The translations under genes and the position numbers were made by a program. This document shows positions 2,970-17,891 of a stretch of DNA of 31,360 nt, one piece after another; within the stretch, counting starts at the first letter, position 1, and the number at the start of each line of letters is the position of its first letter. Source of the DNA: a virus; the IMG/VR virus record IMGVR_UViG_3300035703_000313, positions 1-31,360 of that record; one strand, given 5' to 3'. The notes under the pieces are model-generated. The model worked only from the letters and a program-made list of their open reading frames with translations, was not told the origin of the DNA and did not search any database.

Positions 2970-3226
2970 TTCGTCTTGTCCTCCTTGCCCTCCAGCCGCT
3001 TAAAGATCGTGCCGAGCGTGTTGTCCAGCTTGTCGAAGCCTTTCTCCATGTCGGACTTGAGGGCCTTCATGTCCTCGCGCCAATCGTCCTTGGTCACGTA
3101 GGTCTTGGGCATATCACGAACGTCGCTATCAAGACGCTCGATGGCCTTCGTCATAGTATTCAGCACCCAACCGCCGAAGAAGCCAGCGGCACCGAGAACG
3201 ATATTAAAGAGAAGCTGATAATCCAT
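2966..3226 (-). CDS. Membrane-anchored coiled-coil protein of the lysis cassette (86 aa)
   Basis: One N-terminal membrane helix (MDYQLLFNIVLGAAGFFGGWVL) precedes a charged, heptad-like region rich in Lys/Asp (about residues 27-86). The layout resembles XhlA-like haemolysin/holin-accessory proteins, which anchor at the inner membrane near the endolysin. It overlaps the endolysin start by four bases (ATGA), so the two are coupled. Function is inferred from layout and position only. Confidence 0.6.
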   Translation of the reverse strand: MDYQLLFNIVLGAAGFFGGWVLNTMTKAIERLDSDVRDMPKTYVTKDDWREDMKALKSDMEKGFDKLDNTLGTIFKRLEGKEDKTK

Positions 3227-3258
3227 GACGAAGGCTACCCAGTTCTAGCAGGAGACGA

Positions 3259-3585
3259 TTATGCCCAGGGCAGGGCGGGGGTCACGACCGGCGGGTTAGC
3301 AAGCGCCGCGAGCTGGTTCGCCACGTTCTCTTCATAAGCCGCAACCTGATCTTCGCCCAGAGCATCCTTCACCCAGCCGATCACCTGCGCTTCGGTGAGT
3401 TCGGCATAGGGAGTGTAGGGCGCTTCGGGGTCGAGCGTGAGTCCGGCAGTGCCGTAGACACCGGCGGCGTGTTCACCGTCAGTGCCGTTGAGCGTCCAGT
3501 GGCAGACGAAGACAACGTCGGTGTGGCCTTCGTATTCGGGGTAGCAGTCGAGCTGGGCGACAGTCCAATTGTAGGTAGTAGCCAT
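3259..3585 (-). CDS. Small phage protein downstream of the tail fibre (DUF7936-like)
   Basis: This 108-residue protein begins MATTYNWTVAQLDCYPEY and contains a pattern (TDVVFVCHWTLNGTDG ... LTEAQVIGWVKDALGED) that I recall from small proteins just downstream of tail-fibre genes in many phages. The N-terminal half is beta-rich, followed by two helices and a short Pro/Ala tail. It lies 3 bases after the fibre gene. A role as fibre cap, chaperone or minor virion component is possible but undemonstrated. Confidence 0.6.
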   Translation of the reverse strand: MATTYNWTVAQLDCYPEYEGHTDVVFVCHWTLNGTDGEHAAGVYGTAGLTLDPEAPYTPYAELTEAQVIGWVKDALGEDQVAAYEENVANQLAALANPPVVTPALPWA

Positions 3586-3588
3586 GAT

Positions 3589-5328
3589 TTAGTTTCCTTC
3601 AAACGTGATGGTGGATGCAGAGATTTCCAGTTCAGCCACGCGGGCGCGGAGGGATTGGATTTCCTTGACGAGCATAGGCACAAGCTTGCCGTAGTCCACG
3701 GCCATCATCTCGTCGCTATCAGGTGACCCGCCGACAGCTTCCGGCGCGACTTCGAACAGTTCCTGCGCAACGAGCCCATAACGCTGTTCACTATCGTCAA
3801 CGTTCCACTTAAAACTACGCACCTTGATCGCGTCGATTAGATCGCTGGCTTCTGGCGCATCGATGATGTCGTGCTTGAGGCGAGCGTCTGACGAGGTGTA
3901 GTAGGTGGTGGTGGTGCCATCTGTGCCGATATAACCGACGCGCCCGTTATCGTTGAAGAACGACATCTGGGAAGCAGCGCCCGTCCCCGCAATTTTAGTG
4001 GAAACGCCGCCAAGCGATTGAACCTTTAGGAACGATACGTTGTCAAACGTGCTGGAAGTCCCCACCAGCACGTTGCCGCTGCTGTTGATGCGCATCCGCT
4101 CGGCATCACTGCCGACACGGAAGATCATGTTAGATGTGCTGTCTTTCGCGTCGATGTATAGATTGTTATCCGTGAAGTAGGTCAGAGCCGCGCCAGCGGT
4201 AGTGGAGTTCCATGTGCCGGAAGCATTAGGCCACAGCACGCTGCCGCCGTTCTTGATGTTAAGCGCCGGGCCTCCTCCACCGTAACCGGAAGACAAGGAA
4301 GTTAGCCCGATCCCGACGTTGCCGCTGCTGTCGATGCGCATACGGGTGGCTGTGCCGTCATAAAACGACAAGCCAGAGTTGCTAACACCGACATCGCCTG
4401 CAACAAGCTGCCAAGTTTGACCGCCTGTTCCAGTATTCGAAATAACAACCCGTGCGCCAGCTTGGTCTGCTGAACGGGCATAAATCGCCGGTAGTGCCAA
4501 GCCTGTCGTGTCAGAAGTTAGTCGCCCATAACTACTAGGGGTGCTGGTCCCGATCCCGACGTTGCCGCTGCTGTCGATGCGGGCGCGTTCGGTGTCGCCC
4601 GATCCAAGTGCGAGGTAGCTATTACCGTTAACAAGGATCGCGTTGTCGGTTCCGCTCCGGCGGATATTGCCGATGTATGTGTCATCCGACTTGCGGAAAA
4701 CTTGAAAGTTAGTTCCGCTGGCGGACGCATTGCTGTCCACCATGTTCAAACCCTGCGGGTAGCTACCACCACTATTCCAGCGGATTGAGGTGAAATCGCT
4801 ACCAACGCCCGTGGCCGTGCCGATGAGGAAGCGACCTGCGCTATCAACCCGGAACCGCTCGACTGGCGAACCAATCCCTCCGCCTGTGGCGATGGCGATA
4901 GTGTTGGCAGCAGGAGCATAAATCTGCGCCCCACCAGTATTCCATTCAATAGTCGGAGCAGCGGCGGAAAGACGGATGTTCCCCGTAACATCAAGCCTGG
5001 TTCCAGGGGACACGTTGCCAATCCCAACGTTGCCGCTCGAACTCACATACATCCGACTGGCACCGTTGGTCGCAATGTAAAGGTCTTGCGCATCGTTGTA
5101 GATGGAGGAATTATTTCCACCAGTGGCGGATGAAATCAGCAAGTCGCCGCCGTTGCCGATCAGGACGTTACCCGCCTTATCGACCGCGAACCGCTCCGCC
5201 CCACCAACTTGCAGCGTCAACAGCCTGGACGCAGCCGCCGAGGCCGTGTCGGTCACATTCATCTTGATAGCGTTGAAGGTCGTGCCCCCAGCGCTCCAAG
5301 TGTCGGTCAGGTCATAGATAAAAGCCAT
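3589..5328 (-). CDS. Tail fibre with C-terminal S74 intramolecular chaperone
   Basis: This 579-residue fibre or receptor-binding protein ends in a self-cleaving chaperone. The N-terminus has the phrase FNAIKMNVTDTASAAASRLL, common to fibres of this class. The shaft is built of repeats centred on DSSGNVGIG (at least five copies), each a beta strand-turn of a trimeric stalk. From about residue 476 comes the S74 domain with the catalytic motif SDARLK (Ser 480, Lys 485) and GLVAQELFEVAPEAV. A coiled coil (LVKEIQSLRARVAELE) completes the trimerising chaperone. Cleavage is expected just before Ser 480. The repeated DNA makes this gene a likely site for recombination and host-range change. Confidence 0.88.
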   Translation of the reverse strand: MAFIYDLTDTWSAGGTTFNAIKMNVTDTASAAASRLLTLQVGGAERFAVDKAGNVLIGNGGDLLISSATGGNNSSIYNDAQDLYIATNGASRMYVSSSGNVGIGNVSPGTRLDVTGNIRLSAAAPTIEWNTGGAQIYAPAANTIAIATGGGIGSPVERFRVDSAGRFLIGTATGVGSDFTSIRWNSGGSYPQGLNMVDSNASASGTNFQVFRKSDDTYIGNIRRSGTDNAILVNGNSYLALGSGDTERARIDSSGNVGIGTSTPSSYGRLTSDTTGLALPAIYARSADQAGARVVISNTGTGGQTWQLVAGDVGVSNSGLSFYDGTATRMRIDSSGNVGIGLTSLSSGYGGGGPALNIKNGGSVLWPNASGTWNSTTAGAALTYFTDNNLYIDAKDSTSNMIFRVGSDAERMRINSSGNVLVGTSSTFDNVSFLKVQSLGGVSTKIAGTGAASQMSFFNDNGRVGYIGTDGTTTTYYTSSDARLKHDIIDAPEASDLIDAIKVRSFKWNVDDSEQRYGLVAQELFEVAPEAVGGSPDSDEMMAVDYGKLVPMLVKEIQSLRARVAELEISASTITFEGN

Positions 5329-13693: not shown

Positions 13694-14926
13694 TTACGCG
13701 CCGTCGTTGCCGTAGGCGAACGACACAGCGTGACGGACGCCAACATCGACGCTCTGGAGAGCCACGATGCGGACGGTGCCGGTGTTCGACGAGGTGTACG
13801 GATCGACAGTGATGTCGAGACCGCCCCACATGCCGATCAGCAGGTCGCTGAAGTTGCCGAAGTAGACGTTACCGGCAGTCGCCTGCTGCGAGACGATAAG
13901 CGGGTAGCCGTTGGCTTCACCACGCTCAAGCACGAACATGCCCGAACCAGCGTCCTTCGCCTTGGTCTTCAGACCGCCAGCGGTGGCAGCGTCGGTGATG
14001 TACGACAGGTTGCCCATGAGCGCGTTGTCAACAGCCACAGCCGTTTCCAGCGACACCATTTCGGCAAAGGTCGGAACCGCAGCCGCGAACGCCGTGACGG
14101 TGTTCACGCCCGAAGTGTTGAGGATGCCGGTCGGCTGGCCGCTCGAGCCCGAACCTTCCAGACCGCCCTTGTCGATGGCAATCGCCAGCGCCTGAGTCAG
14201 GTCATCACGCACCAGAGCCTCAATGTCCAGCGAGGACTGGAGGATCATCTGACGGGTCATGTCCGTGAAGGCACCAACGGTCTTCGGCGACATGCTGATC
14301 GCACCGAAGGTCGGTTCGCTTTCCGAAGAAGCGCCGCCCTGGGTGCTGATCCAGCCACCAGCCGAAGCAGTGGCCTTGGTCGGGATCGACACGTTGCCCT
14401 GAAGGCCGGTGAGCATACGCGCACCAGCAGCCATGACCGACGAAGCGTTACGCAGAACGTCCACGAACTCACCCGAAAGCAGGTCGGTGGCGACCAGTTC
14501 GTTGTCGTCGGTGGTGTTCAGGTCGCGCTTCCACGAACCGAGAATGTCGGTCGGGATCATGACGCCCTGAGCCGAACGGCCATAACGCTGTGCAGCAGCT
14601 TCCGAAGCAGCGAACTCGAAAGCAGCGGCTTCGCGCAGACGGCGGTCATTCGGATTGGCAAGAGCGGCGATGGCGCGAACGAGACGGAACTCCTTACGCT
14701 CCTTCCGGGTCAGGCCGATGTCGTTGTTCTCAAGCGGCTTGTCGTTGCCGATCACTTCGAGCAGTTCACCACGGAACTGTTCAATGCTCTTGCCCGACTT
14801 GATAGCAGCGTCGGCGAGGTCACGCTTGTTGTGACGCGCACCGAGATCGATGATGGCAGCGGCATTACGGGCAGCAGCTTCAGCAGCTTCGGCCCGAACC
14901 GCATCCAGATTCACTTCGTCAGCCAT
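13694..14926 (-). CDS. Major capsid protein from a possible internal start (410 aa)
   Basis: ATG 14926, in frame within the fusion gene, is preceded by AAGGAAG (14932-14938) at 5-nt spacing, a better ribosome site than most in the window. It falls exactly at the boundary between protease and capsid, giving MADEVNLDAVRAEAAEAAAR..., a normal delta-domain start, and a 410-residue product of ordinary HK97-fold length. I infer that capsid subunits are made mainly from this start and the full fusion in small amounts. Nothing in sequence proves use of the start. Confidence 0.5.
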   Translation of the reverse strand: MADEVNLDAVRAEAAEAAARNAAAIIDLGARHNKRDLADAAIKSGKSIEQFRGELLEVIGNDKPLENNDIGLTRKERKEFRLVRAIAALANPNDRRLREAAAFEFAASEAAAQRYGRSAQGVMIPTDILGSWKRDLNTTDDNELVATDLLSGEFVDVLRNASSVMAAGARMLTGLQGNVSIPTKATASAGGWISTQGGASSESEPTFGAISMSPKTVGAFTDMTRQMILQSSLDIEALVRDDLTQALAIAIDKGGLEGSGSSGQPTGILNTSGVNTVTAFAAAVPTFAEMVSLETAVAVDNALMGNLSYITDAATAGGLKTKAKDAGSGMFVLERGEANGYPLIVSQQATAGNVYFGNFSDLLIGMWGGLDITVDPYTSSNTGTVRIVALQSVDVGVRHAVSFAYGNDGA

Positions 14927-16423
14927 TTTGGCTTCCTTTCTGATGGATGGTTCAACGGTAGGTTTGGGTTCGAGAGCAGCCGCGCTACGGCCCACGCCGA
15001 CTGACGGGTCAGCGGGGATCGAAACGACGGATACTTCCAGAGGGGACCAAGACCGCACGCGGTAGACATCCCGCTGCTTGTCGTCTCGCTCCATTTTGTT
15101 GACGCGGTAGCCGACCGAAATATTCGACCGAATACCATCGACAACATCCTGAAAGACCTCCTGAGCAAGCGCAGAGCGACCGAACCGGACTTTGGCGCGG
15201 AGCTTGCGATCCTCTGAGAGGCTCACAGATTCGATAACGCCGATCTGACGTTCCATGTCATGATCGAGCAAAAGAGGGGCGCGACCCGAAGCCAGAAAGC
15301 CCAGGTCAATAGCGCCAGCTTCGTGGACAAGGATTTCCTTGCCAAAGGACCGCTCCACAGGAAGCTCAGACGACACAGCGATGTGCGCGGTGCGCTTTTC
15401 CTCATCGATGGTCTTGGGCTCCATCGCAAAGGCACGGCGGCCAATCTCGCCACTGCCCTTGCGGTCAGCCTCAAGCATAGGCTCCATATCGTCGCTGTAC
15501 TCTTCTTCTGCGTCTTCGGGCTCGACGGTTGCGAGTTCCGAAGTGTCAACTTCGACCTCAACCTTAACCTTCATGCGCTCTTCAAGAGACTCTGGCACAG
15601 TACGTTCCCCAGTGGCTTCTTCGAACTCAATAACATCAAAGTCTCGCTCACTCAACCACGCCCGCGCAGCAGCCACGCTGTAGAGTGCGCTATCGAAGCG
15701 AATAGATTGTAGCTCAGAAGGCCCATCGTCCATAAGACCAAAGATAAAATCAATACCATCGCCACCAGCGTCATTGTCGCGCCTAAAACCATCAAACCGA
15801 TCAGGGTCCGCAAGTCTTGCAGCATGTTCATTAGGATACGGTCGATAGTCATCATAGCTTCTAATCTCATTGATCTTCGTGAGAGTCGAGAAGCGGTGCC
15901 CGACCATCACATCAGTCTCTTCGCCATTGCGGTACAGGCGAATAAGGGCAGCGGGGTCGTCCTCGGTCGCATTCAAAGTGAAATCCGTGTCAGGCACTTC
16001 CAACTGCCCTTCACGAACGATGCGCTCGATCCGACCCCGCGCCCGCCCCCCAGACGAGTTCCACGACACGAAATCACCGATGCTCAACTCATCAGCCGCA
16101 GCCCGCTCGTTATCCATACCAGCCACCTTGTCACGGCTCCATGCGAACCCGGCGTCACCACCCCAGAGGGCGTGTGCAATCCTTCCGTTCGAGGGATAAC
16201 CATCTTCGCCAGGACGGAAGCCCACGGCCTGCTTGTCAACCTCATGGCGGCTAAAGAAGCTGAACATCCGCTTGACCGTCTCTTCCGACAGATTGCGTCC
16301 ATTCACAATGTCCCGCGCCCGGGCGATCCCAACCTCGGTGCCACCCCGACCAAGCTCCCGCCGCCAATCCAGACCGCGCTGGGCCTCTTCGACCATGCCT
16401 TCGGTGGGCTTATACTCCGCCAT
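13694..16423 (-). CDS. Prohead protease/HK97-type major capsid protein fusion (909 aa)
   Basis: One gene carries several units. Residues about 6-100 (KPTEGMVEEAQRGLDW ... ALWGGDAGFAWS) form a domain seen in phage head proteins. Residues about 116-190 (SIGDFVSWNSSGGRARGRIE ... GHRFSTLTKI) resemble the Hva1/TUDOR domain. A variable acidic stretch comes next. An S78-like HK97 prohead protease spans about 340-480, with His 388 in LLLDHDM and Ser 436 in SNISVGY. From residue 500 comes a delta/scaffold helix region and the HK97-fold capsid body (QGVMIPTDILG, SIPTKATASAGGW, GGLEGSGSSGQPTGIL). The protease should remove scaffold segments after shell assembly. ATG 16423 overlaps the portal gene by 14 bases. 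An internal ribosome site at residue 500 suggests separate capsid synthesis. Confidence 0.88.
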   Translation of the reverse strand: MAEYKPTEGMVEEAQRGLDWRRELGRGGTEVGIARARDIVNGRNLSEETVKRMFSFFSRHEVDKQAVGFRPGEDGYPSNGRIAHALWGGDAGFAWSRDKVAGMDNERAAADELSIGDFVSWNSSGGRARGRIERIVREGQLEVPDTDFTLNATEDDPAALIRLYRNGEETDVMVGHRFSTLTKINEIRSYDDYRPYPNEHAARLADPDRFDGFRRDNDAGGDGIDFIFGLMDDGPSELQSIRFDSALYSVAAARAWLSERDFDVIEFEEATGERTVPESLEERMKVKVEVEVDTSELATVEPEDAEEEYSDDMEPMLEADRKGSGEIGRRAFAMEPKTIDEEKRTAHIAVSSELPVERSFGKEILVHEAGAIDLGFLASGRAPLLLDHDMERQIGVIESVSLSEDRKLRAKVRFGRSALAQEVFQDVVDGIRSNISVGYRVNKMERDDKQRDVYRVRSWSPLEVSVVSIPADPSVGVGRSAAALEPKPTVEPSIRKEAKMADEVNLDAVRAEAAEAAARNAAAIIDLGARHNKRDLADAAIKSGKSIEQFRGELLEVIGNDKPLENNDIGLTRKERKEFRLVRAIAALANPNDRRLREAAAFEFAASEAAAQRYGRSAQGVMIPTDILGSWKRDLNTTDDNELVATDLLSGEFVDVLRNASSVMAAGARMLTGLQGNVSIPTKATASAGGWISTQGGASSESEPTFGAISMSPKTVGAFTDMTRQMILQSSLDIEALVRDDLTQALAIAIDKGGLEGSGSSGQPTGILNTSGVNTVTAFAAAVPTFAEMVSLETAVAVDNALMGNLSYITDAATAGGLKTKAKDAGSGMFVLERGEANGYPLIVSQQATAGNVYFGNFSDLLIGMWGGLDITVDPYTSSNTGTVRIVALQSVDVGVRHAVSFAYGNDGA
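14932..14938 (-). promoter_or_regulatory. Internal Shine-Dalgarno AAGGAAG before the capsid domain
   Basis: Minus-strand AAGGAAG is followed by CCAAA and ATG 14926. It lies inside the coding region, at the linker between protease and capsid parts. Its position decides the proposed second start. Confidence 0.55.
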
Positions 16424-17891
16424 CAGTCGGCTCCTCCGGCATTGGCTTCGCGGCCTCGTTCCCACCGAAGGGCTGGAAGGCCAGCTTCAGGCCCAGACTG
16501 TCAGCGAGTTCCTGATCGCGCTGAATCTGTGAGAAGGTCTCTTCGATGTCGCGGCCATACTGGTTCGACACATCTTGCATCGACATGATGCCATTGTGCA
16601 TGGCGGTAACCGCAGCATTGATTTCCTTCTGCGGATCGACCCACTGCCAGCCACGCGGACGGAACACACTCGCAGTGAAGAACTTGTCGAAGCGTGTGGC
16701 CGGGATCGGAACAACCCCGAACTCCATCGCGTTCATCAGCCAAGCTGAATAAGCAGGCAGCACGAAGTGTTCGAGCAGGAACTTCTGCATCCGCTTGTAA
16801 GCGTCCCGCTCTTCCAGCGCGCCCTGGCGGATCGAGCTATAGGAAGTCCCCTCCAGATCGTTCGAGAGCGAGGCGTAGGAAACTCCCAGACCCGAAGCCA
16901 GACCGCGCAGGATGCCCTTCTCAAAGTCGGCAAAGGCAGTCGCAGGATGGTTCATGTCGAACGGCTTGAAATCCACCCCAGCCGGTAGCTGGTGGAACAT
17001 GCCGGGTTCAGCATCGATGATCGGCACCCGACCATCGTAATCATCCGCCGGAACCTCATCCCCGCTGTCGCTAATGAAGAACCCCATCTTCGACGCAGCC
17101 ATGCGGCTGGCGACGAGTTCCGCCTCGCGGTGAGCGTTAAGCATCTTCAGCGGAGCGATGGCCGGTGCCATCCACGGCTCGCCACGAGTCTGACCGGCAC
17201 GTATCGGATCGAACACATGGATCATGCTCGAAGCAGGCACACGCTTGGTCACCGAACTGCGGATGCTCGACATGTCGTAATCGCCAGGGTGATTGGTCTT
17301 CACCCAGTATGCAACAGGCCGATTGAACTCATCGACCTCGACACCCATCCGAATGCGGTTGCCGTTCTGCGCAATCTCGTTCTTCTTCTCGTCGATCAAA
17401 TCCGCTTCGACCGGATGGAAGGCAATCCCGTGCGGGAAGCGCCGGTTGCGCACGATCTGAATGAATGCCTCGCCGTCACGGGCAGTGGCCTCGATCACAT
17501 ACTGCTGAAGATCGACCCACGACCGGCGACCGTCAGCGGTGCAGTTCCCCATCAGGTTAAACTGCGCCCAAGCGTTCTCGATGATGGTGTTGCCGACCAC
17601 ATCCATCGAGCCGTTGTCGTTGCGCGCCTTGACCTGCAAGGTCATGCCCTGGTCGCCGACGACGTTGGTCTTCAGCAGCGTCAAGTAACGCTTTACATAT
17701 ACATCGTTGCGGGCCAGCTCGCGCGAGCGGTTCCGCATCAGCACCAGATCGGTGCGAAGCTCGCTGTCGGCACTGCGGTTTGACGAAGTAAAGTCAGCAA
17801 ACAAGCGGCCAGTGTTGGCGGCTTGATAACTGCGCTTCTGCACACCCTTCCGCTCTACCGGCAAGCCGAAAATCTCGCGCCAGATGCTCAT
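16410..17891 (-). CDS. Portal protein, lambda family
   Basis: A 493-residue lambda gpB-like portal. Visible family features are the N-terminal helix region with NRSRELARNDVYVKRYLTLL, the segment VGDQGMTLQVKAR, the core DGEAFIQIVRNRRF and VEADLIDEKKNE. Further on are VIHVF-type IHVFDPIRAGQTRGEPWMAPAI and GLGVSYASLSNDLEGTSYSS. It forms the dodecameric ring at the packaging vertex and binds the terminase. ATG 17891 (MSIWREIFGLPVER) overlaps the connector stop as ATGA; a longer upstream reading is shadow sequence of that gene. It overlaps the protease-capsid gene by 14 bases. Confidence 0.92.
   Translation of the reverse strand: MSIWREIFGLPVERKGVQKRSYQAANTGRLFADFTSSNRSADSELRTDLVLMRNRSRELARNDVYVKRYLTLLKTNVVGDQGMTLQVKARNDNGSMDVVGNTIIENAWAQFNLMGNCTADGRRSWVDLQQYVIEATARDGEAFIQIVRNRRFPHGIAFHPVEADLIDEKKNEIAQNGNRIRMGVEVDEFNRPVAYWVKTNHPGDYDMSSIRSSVTKRVPASSMIHVFDPIRAGQTRGEPWMAPAIAPLKMLNAHREAELVASRMAASKMGFFISDSGDEVPADDYDGRVPIIDAEPGMFHQLPAGVDFKPFDMNHPATAFADFEKGILRGLASGLGVSYASLSNDLEGTSYSSIRQGALEERDAYKRMQKFLLEHFVLPAYSAWLMNAMEFGVVPIPATRFDKFFTASVFRPRGWQWVDPQKEINAAVTAMHNGIMSMQDVSNQYGRDIEETFSQIQRDQELADSLGLKLAFQPFGGNEAAKPMPEEPTDGGV

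Follow-up and report, generated by a model that had tools for sequence, protein, structure and literature searches.

In phage head genes, nested starts have a precedent in lambda C/Nu3, where an in-frame start within the protease gene gives an abundant C-terminal product that shares its C terminus with the protease. Gifsy-2 is said, from the work of Effantin et al. in 2010, to carry a ClpP protease, a scaffold and a capsid protein in a single gene. The MD8-type genes also join a ClpP-type protease, a scaffold and a capsid protein, and the MD8 fusion is described as one gene product in the main text of PMC8508860, from which the terms 'internal' and 'start codon' are absent. For the RcC cluster, too, PMC8601537 mentions that capsid and protease are fused. 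Protease-capsid fusions as such are already known (NF045541; PMC8601537, PMC8508860). Searches of open-access literature found no description of a capsid start nested within such a fusion.

The window analysed in this study is the whole 31,360-base virus record, and its minus strand carries a lambda-like head module in the order terminase large subunit (GpA type), lambda-family portal, fusion gene, gpFII-type head-tail attachment protein, tail terminator and tail proteins. The fusion gene (Table 1) encodes an N-terminal extension, an S78-type prohead protease, a linker, a delta (scaffold-like) domain and an HK97-fold major capsid protein, and its full-length start lies within a 14-nt overlap with the end of the portal ORF. 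With lambda C/Nu3 this gene shares a nested in-frame start inside a protease gene, here with a conserved ribosome-binding site of its own. However, the nested product of lambda is the scaffold only and its capsid protein E comes from a separate gene, whereas the nested product of the window would be the capsid protein itself. The Gifsy-2/MD8 type is similar in having protease, scaffold and capsid in one frame and a linker Met with a Shine-Dalgarno (SD) sequence after the protease (9/9), but its protease is of the ClpP kind and that of the window is S78. HK97 has the same capsid fold and likewise an N-terminal scaffold-like domain, which in HK97 is removed by the protease, but there the gp4 protease and the gp5 capsid protein are encoded by two separate adjacent genes, according to PMC8508860.

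The closest family is phrog_617. Residues 334-907 aligned with positions 16-623 of the 626 in that profile (509.9 bits, 2.5e-152), and on the strength of this match the window fusion is assigned to the phrog_617 family of S78 protease-capsid fusions. The fusions of ep3, VP882, phiHAP-1, RcCronus, R4C, S-CBS1/3 and the CRP-8xx phages have the same domain order as the window. Phage records of this family annotate the fusion as one product, mostly as 'major capsid protein' (VP882 has 'putative phage-related protein' and PPpW-3 'putative major capsid protein and peptidase U35'), and no nested product is annotated in the phrog_617 phage records examined. The NCBIfam model for prohead protease/capsid fusions, NF045541, aligned at profile positions 1-288 of 634 only and its cut-off was missed (160.9 vs 525 bits). 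Single-domain profiles agreed with the layout, with Peptidase_S78 matching residues 380-475 and Phage_capsid (PF05065) matching residues 644-906 (6.9e-39), and His388 and Ser436 of the protease were invariant in 59 aligned sequences. An AlphaFold2 model of the fusion was made from 59 sequences; its mean pLDDT of 72.9 and pTM of 0.41 mean that the individual domains are trustworthy and their arrangement is not. It places the protease at about residues 345-480, disorder at 481-506, a helical region at 506-631 and further disorder at 632-651, followed by the capsid fold. The best Foldseek match of the model was 8gta, the capsid of roseophage R4C, and HK97 heads were matched also. The 333-residue N-terminal extension, with its phrog_2859 region and Tudor-like domain, is found in some relatives and is absent from many shorter fusions; at least 150 residues precede the protease in 24 of 88 distinct sequences, a count from which truncated contigs were not excluded.

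Table 1. Features of the fusion gene and its surroundings, in coordinates of the window.
Feature	Position	Strand	Basis or remark
Fusion ORF, 909 aa	13694-16423	minus	stop-free translation, profile matches, AlphaFold2 model
Full-length start	16423	minus	
SD of full-length start, GGAGGAG	16431-16437	minus	duplex energy -9.5
N-terminal extension, residues 1-333	15425-16423	minus	phrog_2859 region 5-110, Hva1_TUDOR 116-167
Prohead protease domain, residues ~345-480	14984-15391	minus	profile and AlphaFold2 model
Disordered linker, residues 481-506, contains Met500	14906-14983	minus	pLDDT <50
Reduced synonymous variation, residues ~480-512	14888-14986	minus	
Strongest synonymous constraint, residues 480-491	14951-14986	minus	upstream of the internal SD
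Internal SD, AAGGAAG	14932-14938	minus	
Spacer, CCAAA	14927-14931	minus	
Internal start codon, ATG (Met500)	14924-14926	minus	
Small RNA hairpin with covariation, around the internal ATG	14921-14933	minus	window clade only
Proposed nested gene, 410 aa, delta domain and capsid	13694-14926	minus	
Delta (scaffold-like) domain, helical, residues ~506-631	14531-14908	minus	AlphaFold2; removal in maturation expected
Expected mature capsid protein, residues ~640-909	13697-14506	minus	alignment to 8gta chain A
Open frame of 424 codons, antisense to the capsid part	13730-15004	plus	

An earlier note on this DNA had proposed that AAGGAAG-CCAAA-ATG (14938-14924) lies at the domain junction and would yield a 410-aa capsid product from a strong internal start; it made no mention of the 333-residue N-terminal extension. 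The sequence was confirmed and is in frame. Its place at the junction was borne out as well, since Met500 falls in the disordered linker between protease and delta domain (pLDDT <50, with the next helix at 506-530). TIGR01554 matched residues 533-904 at model positions 40-382 of 385, and extending this match back to the first position of the model puts the expected beginning of a free-standing capsid protein of the HK97 type near residue 494. The word 'strong' is justified by the conservation described below but not by the SD, which is ordinary: of 562 ATGs on the coding strand, 14.2% have a duplex energy as good as its -5.6 or better, and in the same gene Met103 (-7.0), Met829 (-5.8) and the fusion's own start all surpass it. 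It is also no stronger than synonymous alternatives for the same amino acids (null mean -8.0). SD strength at this single site was therefore rejected as proof, the synonymous null itself being stronger. Taken in the window alone, the internal site is not beyond chance, and its significance rests on conservation and not on strength. Because the internal SD is weaker than the upstream one, the relative yield of the two starts is not predictable from the SDs alone.

Close relatives were collected by three scans of viral contigs, which gave 192 coding sequences, 88 of them distinct with the window included; a scan of genome contigs found no relative. Wherever both protease and capsid were present at these loci, they were fused. 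The internal ATG was present in all 88 distinct sequences and AGGA at a fixed spacing in 87, the remaining one having GGAGG. One of the search patterns of the first scan, KEAKMADE, spans the junction (the other two scans used patterns elsewhere), but it is absent from 78/88 distinct sequences and so pattern-driven selection cannot explain the conservation of the ATG. When the set was thinned at 97% identity, Met was found at residue 500 in 59/59 sequences, and residues 498, 499 and 501 were variable. Synonymous variation, expressed as observed over expected and corrected for amino acid and pair distance, reached its lowest value in the gene at residues 480-496 (0.39), and at residues 484-499 it was 0.51, a value as low as which was seen in 0/20000 column permutations. 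The dip at the start of the linker was seen in three of four disjoint groups, the ep3 group being the one without it. A further argument from K496 (57/57 AAG codons) was dropped, as other capsid Lys columns reach similar values.

The low synonymous variation runs about 20 codons upstream, farther than an SD needs, and is strongest at residues 480-491 (0.28). This is what would be expected if the capsid part were over-produced from its own mRNA, made from a promoter within the gene or by RNA processing ahead of 14926, and if the internal start served chiefly on this transcript. However, no sigma-70-like promoter was found on the minus strand between 13400 and 16600, and there was no Rfam match for a known RNA element; neither these nor a conserved stem accounts for the low variation at residues 480-491. 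A separate mRNA, which we regard as unlikely, would still make use of the same internal start.

Divergent fusions were sampled from twenty named phage stretches and four more scans. Together the viral contigs and the stretches first taken from the named phages gave 397 loci, many of them on the same contigs, of which 371 were scored as fused. The 26 unfused loci comprise 19 cut off at the 5' side, five without a protease match, one without a capsid match and one that is split or frameshifted (L291). In the last of these (3164-4820), a frameshift in the delta region or an assembly error breaks the gene, and the linker ATG persists in the upstream frame. At another locus, L198 (1486-4414, CRP-823), the fusion is annotated as two overlapping 'major capsid protein' ORFs, likely through a frameshift in the N-terminal extension. 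Four unfused loci (L250, L251, L385 and L392) have a capsid gene of their own; its start codon, ATG or GTG, precedes the delta region and follows a purine-rich leader.

Clustering of 392 sequences at 70% capsid identity gave 32 clusters, three of them from the clade of the window. An in-frame ATG lies within 60 codons after the protease in 32/32 clusters, so that the conservation in relatives on which the earlier note had made its reading depend holds for close and divergent fusions alike. This linker ATG has a good SD (duplex energy <=-5) in 24/32 clusters, a level reached by 19% of 591 background windows of the same 60-codon length and by 54% of 96 annotated starts. Clustering at 90% gave a linker ATG in 78/81 and an SD of <=-5 in 53/81, and the corresponding figures for all 392 sequences are 384 and 266. 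RNA at SD-bearing linker ATGs carries less structure than the average for the gene (-5.5 vs -11.5), with 24/25 below the median. Exceptions include the S-CBS cyanophage clade, which lacks an SD and yet keeps a start codon in 78/78 sequences (70 ATG and 8 GTG) with no other replacement; L328, L330 and L332 are members in which GTG stands in for the linker ATG without any SD. Synonymous variation in this clade is lowest exactly at and after the start codon (0.32-0.34). The L238 group, also without an SD, has a similar synonymous pattern, and M29 has a weak SD. Selection thus acts on the start generally, but the means of initiation may differ.

The ClpP-type genes allow the same comparison with an unrelated protease. 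Nine fusions, including Gifsy-2 and Fels-1, were chosen among 63 records so as to cover a range of identities; since MD8 and F10 are 99.5% identical, eight of the nine are distinct. All nine have a Met just behind the protease, and an SD of <=-6 precedes it in every case, against 5% of 221 other in-frame ATGs. Eight Met columns are conserved in all nine fusions, and the linker Met is the only one of them with an SD. The predicted nested product is 459-487 aa long, some stretches ending a few residues before the stop. We take this recurrence as independent support for a two-product logic.

Codon usage also changes along the fusion gene. In the window, C-ending codons make up 0.48-0.50 of two-fold codons before residue 500, 0.71 in the delta domain and 0.90 in the capsid part, where the share exceeds that of all 27 other ORFs examined. 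The 424-codon antisense frame is probably a by-product of this capsid codon bias. In 34 relatives the share is 0.54 for the protease and 0.785 for the capsid, with the capsid higher in 33/34, and the step persists at invariant residues only (0.54 vs 0.80) and is therefore not explained by conservation alone. Among 12 window ORFs tested, only the fusion gene has a significant change point; it lies at codon 530 and not exactly at 500, which counts against a link to the internal start. The step is weak in divergent fusions (22/31 clusters).

If all ribosomes made the full fusion, equal codon pressure on both halves would be expected, although codon bias may differ between domains for other reasons. 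Production of the full-length fusion only would mean that every procapsid subunit starts with a protease, that proteolysis alone gives the capsid protein, and that Met500 is a structural or cleavage-site residue. The better SD of the fusion's own start in the window fits this explanation, and so does the R4C virion, in which the capsid chain (8gta) corresponds to residues 362-629 of the fusion, itself 629 aa long and with a linker Met at position 189; the chain starts 173 residues past that Met, the intervening region having been removed, and a C-terminal fusion fragment of this kind is predicted with or without a nested start. For the same reason, since virions lose the delta domain, sequencing the N terminus of their capsid protein cannot distinguish between the models. 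However, Met500 lies in a linker predicted to be disordered, the synonymous sites around it are constrained, SDs recur ahead of linker ATGs in unrelated linkers and in ClpP-type fusions, and the S-CBS clade replaces ATG by GTG alone. Exclusive use of the full-length start thus appears improbable. It is very improbable that the ATG and SD are a disused relic of a recent fusion of a protease gene with a capsid gene, for although separate relatives exist and the nested product is as long as a free-standing capsid gene, 371/397 loci are fused with the remainder mostly truncated, fused clusters differ at below 70% capsid identity, which makes the fusion old, and an unused site would be expected to decay in so variable a linker, where the start codon and SD have been kept.

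In the clade of the window, moreover, a small RNA hairpin encloses the start codon. Bases -7 to -4 and +2 to +5 of the internal ATG are complementary, all four pairs are present in 53/59 relatives, and this pairing ranks first of 1350 offsets. Over 34 distinct rows, 94.1% of hairpin cells pair (72.9% when shuffled) and the covariation score is 0.609 (0.227 when shuffled and 0.119 for the best slid version); the numbers of pairs changed on both sides and of pair types showed no excess over shuffles in these rows. Part of this change is synonymous in both arms, as in GAA..ACT vs GAG..ACC. A tree from which the junction was left out requires at least 21 changes of haplotype, though recombination could move haplotypes as blocks and not all of these need be separate mutations. 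The sides of C-G at -5/+3 changed together in 9/9 independent pairs in most draws (p 0.004) and those at -6/+4 in 6/6 (p 0.03), and joint changes at these positions never went in opposite ways; T-A and A-T at -5/+3 missed 0.05 in the same test. Residues 498 and 501 co-vary (V-T, A-A, S-D, D-S), which looks driven by the RNA pairing. The predicted stability of the hairpin is only -2.4 to -4.5 kcal/mol. As a general feature of these fusions the hairpin was rejected, being found outside the window clade in 11/29 clusters compared with 38% of background codons. We suggest that within the clade the hairpin may tune or couple internal initiation; pairing around the ATG could also dampen it.

The anatomy of the gene and the selection on its internal start, both documented here, are best explained by two products, which the gene very probably encodes, with the nested product as the main capsid protein. 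We infer from them initiation at the internal ATG in vivo, a higher abundance of the nested product and joint assembly of the two, a model to which we give a probability of roughly 0.85. In this model few ribosomes would initiate at 16423 and give a low level of the full-length protease-delta-capsid fusion, and more would start de novo at 14926-14924 and make an abundant 410-aa delta-capsid protein. The shared capsid domain would allow both to co-assemble, so that in a few procapsid subunits a protease would sit at the N terminus, which faces inward. It would then cut off itself and all delta domains to leave a mature capsid protein of about 270 aa, a final step that agrees with the R4C virion chain.

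The odds are about even, in our estimate, that the scheme extends to protease-capsid fusions with S78 and ClpP proteases (including Gifsy-2) as a rule. The nested capsid start would then be maintained throughout and would work without an SD in the cyanophage clade, the hairpin of the window clade would set the capsid-to-protease ratio or couple it to translation of the fusion, and the rare fusion would be a self-encapsidating protease that enters the lattice as a capsid subunit. Two starts would explain how many shell subunits but few proteases come from one gene, and the two-product reading gives a simple and testable answer to the problem of the subunit ratio when protease, scaffold and capsid share a gene. 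The hairpin provides a handle on how the ratio of capsid to protease is set. The findings also suggest that many records with a single 600-900-aa 'major capsid protein' miss the real start of the capsid protein, which would affect virion mass spectrometry, work on capsid structure and assembly experiments.
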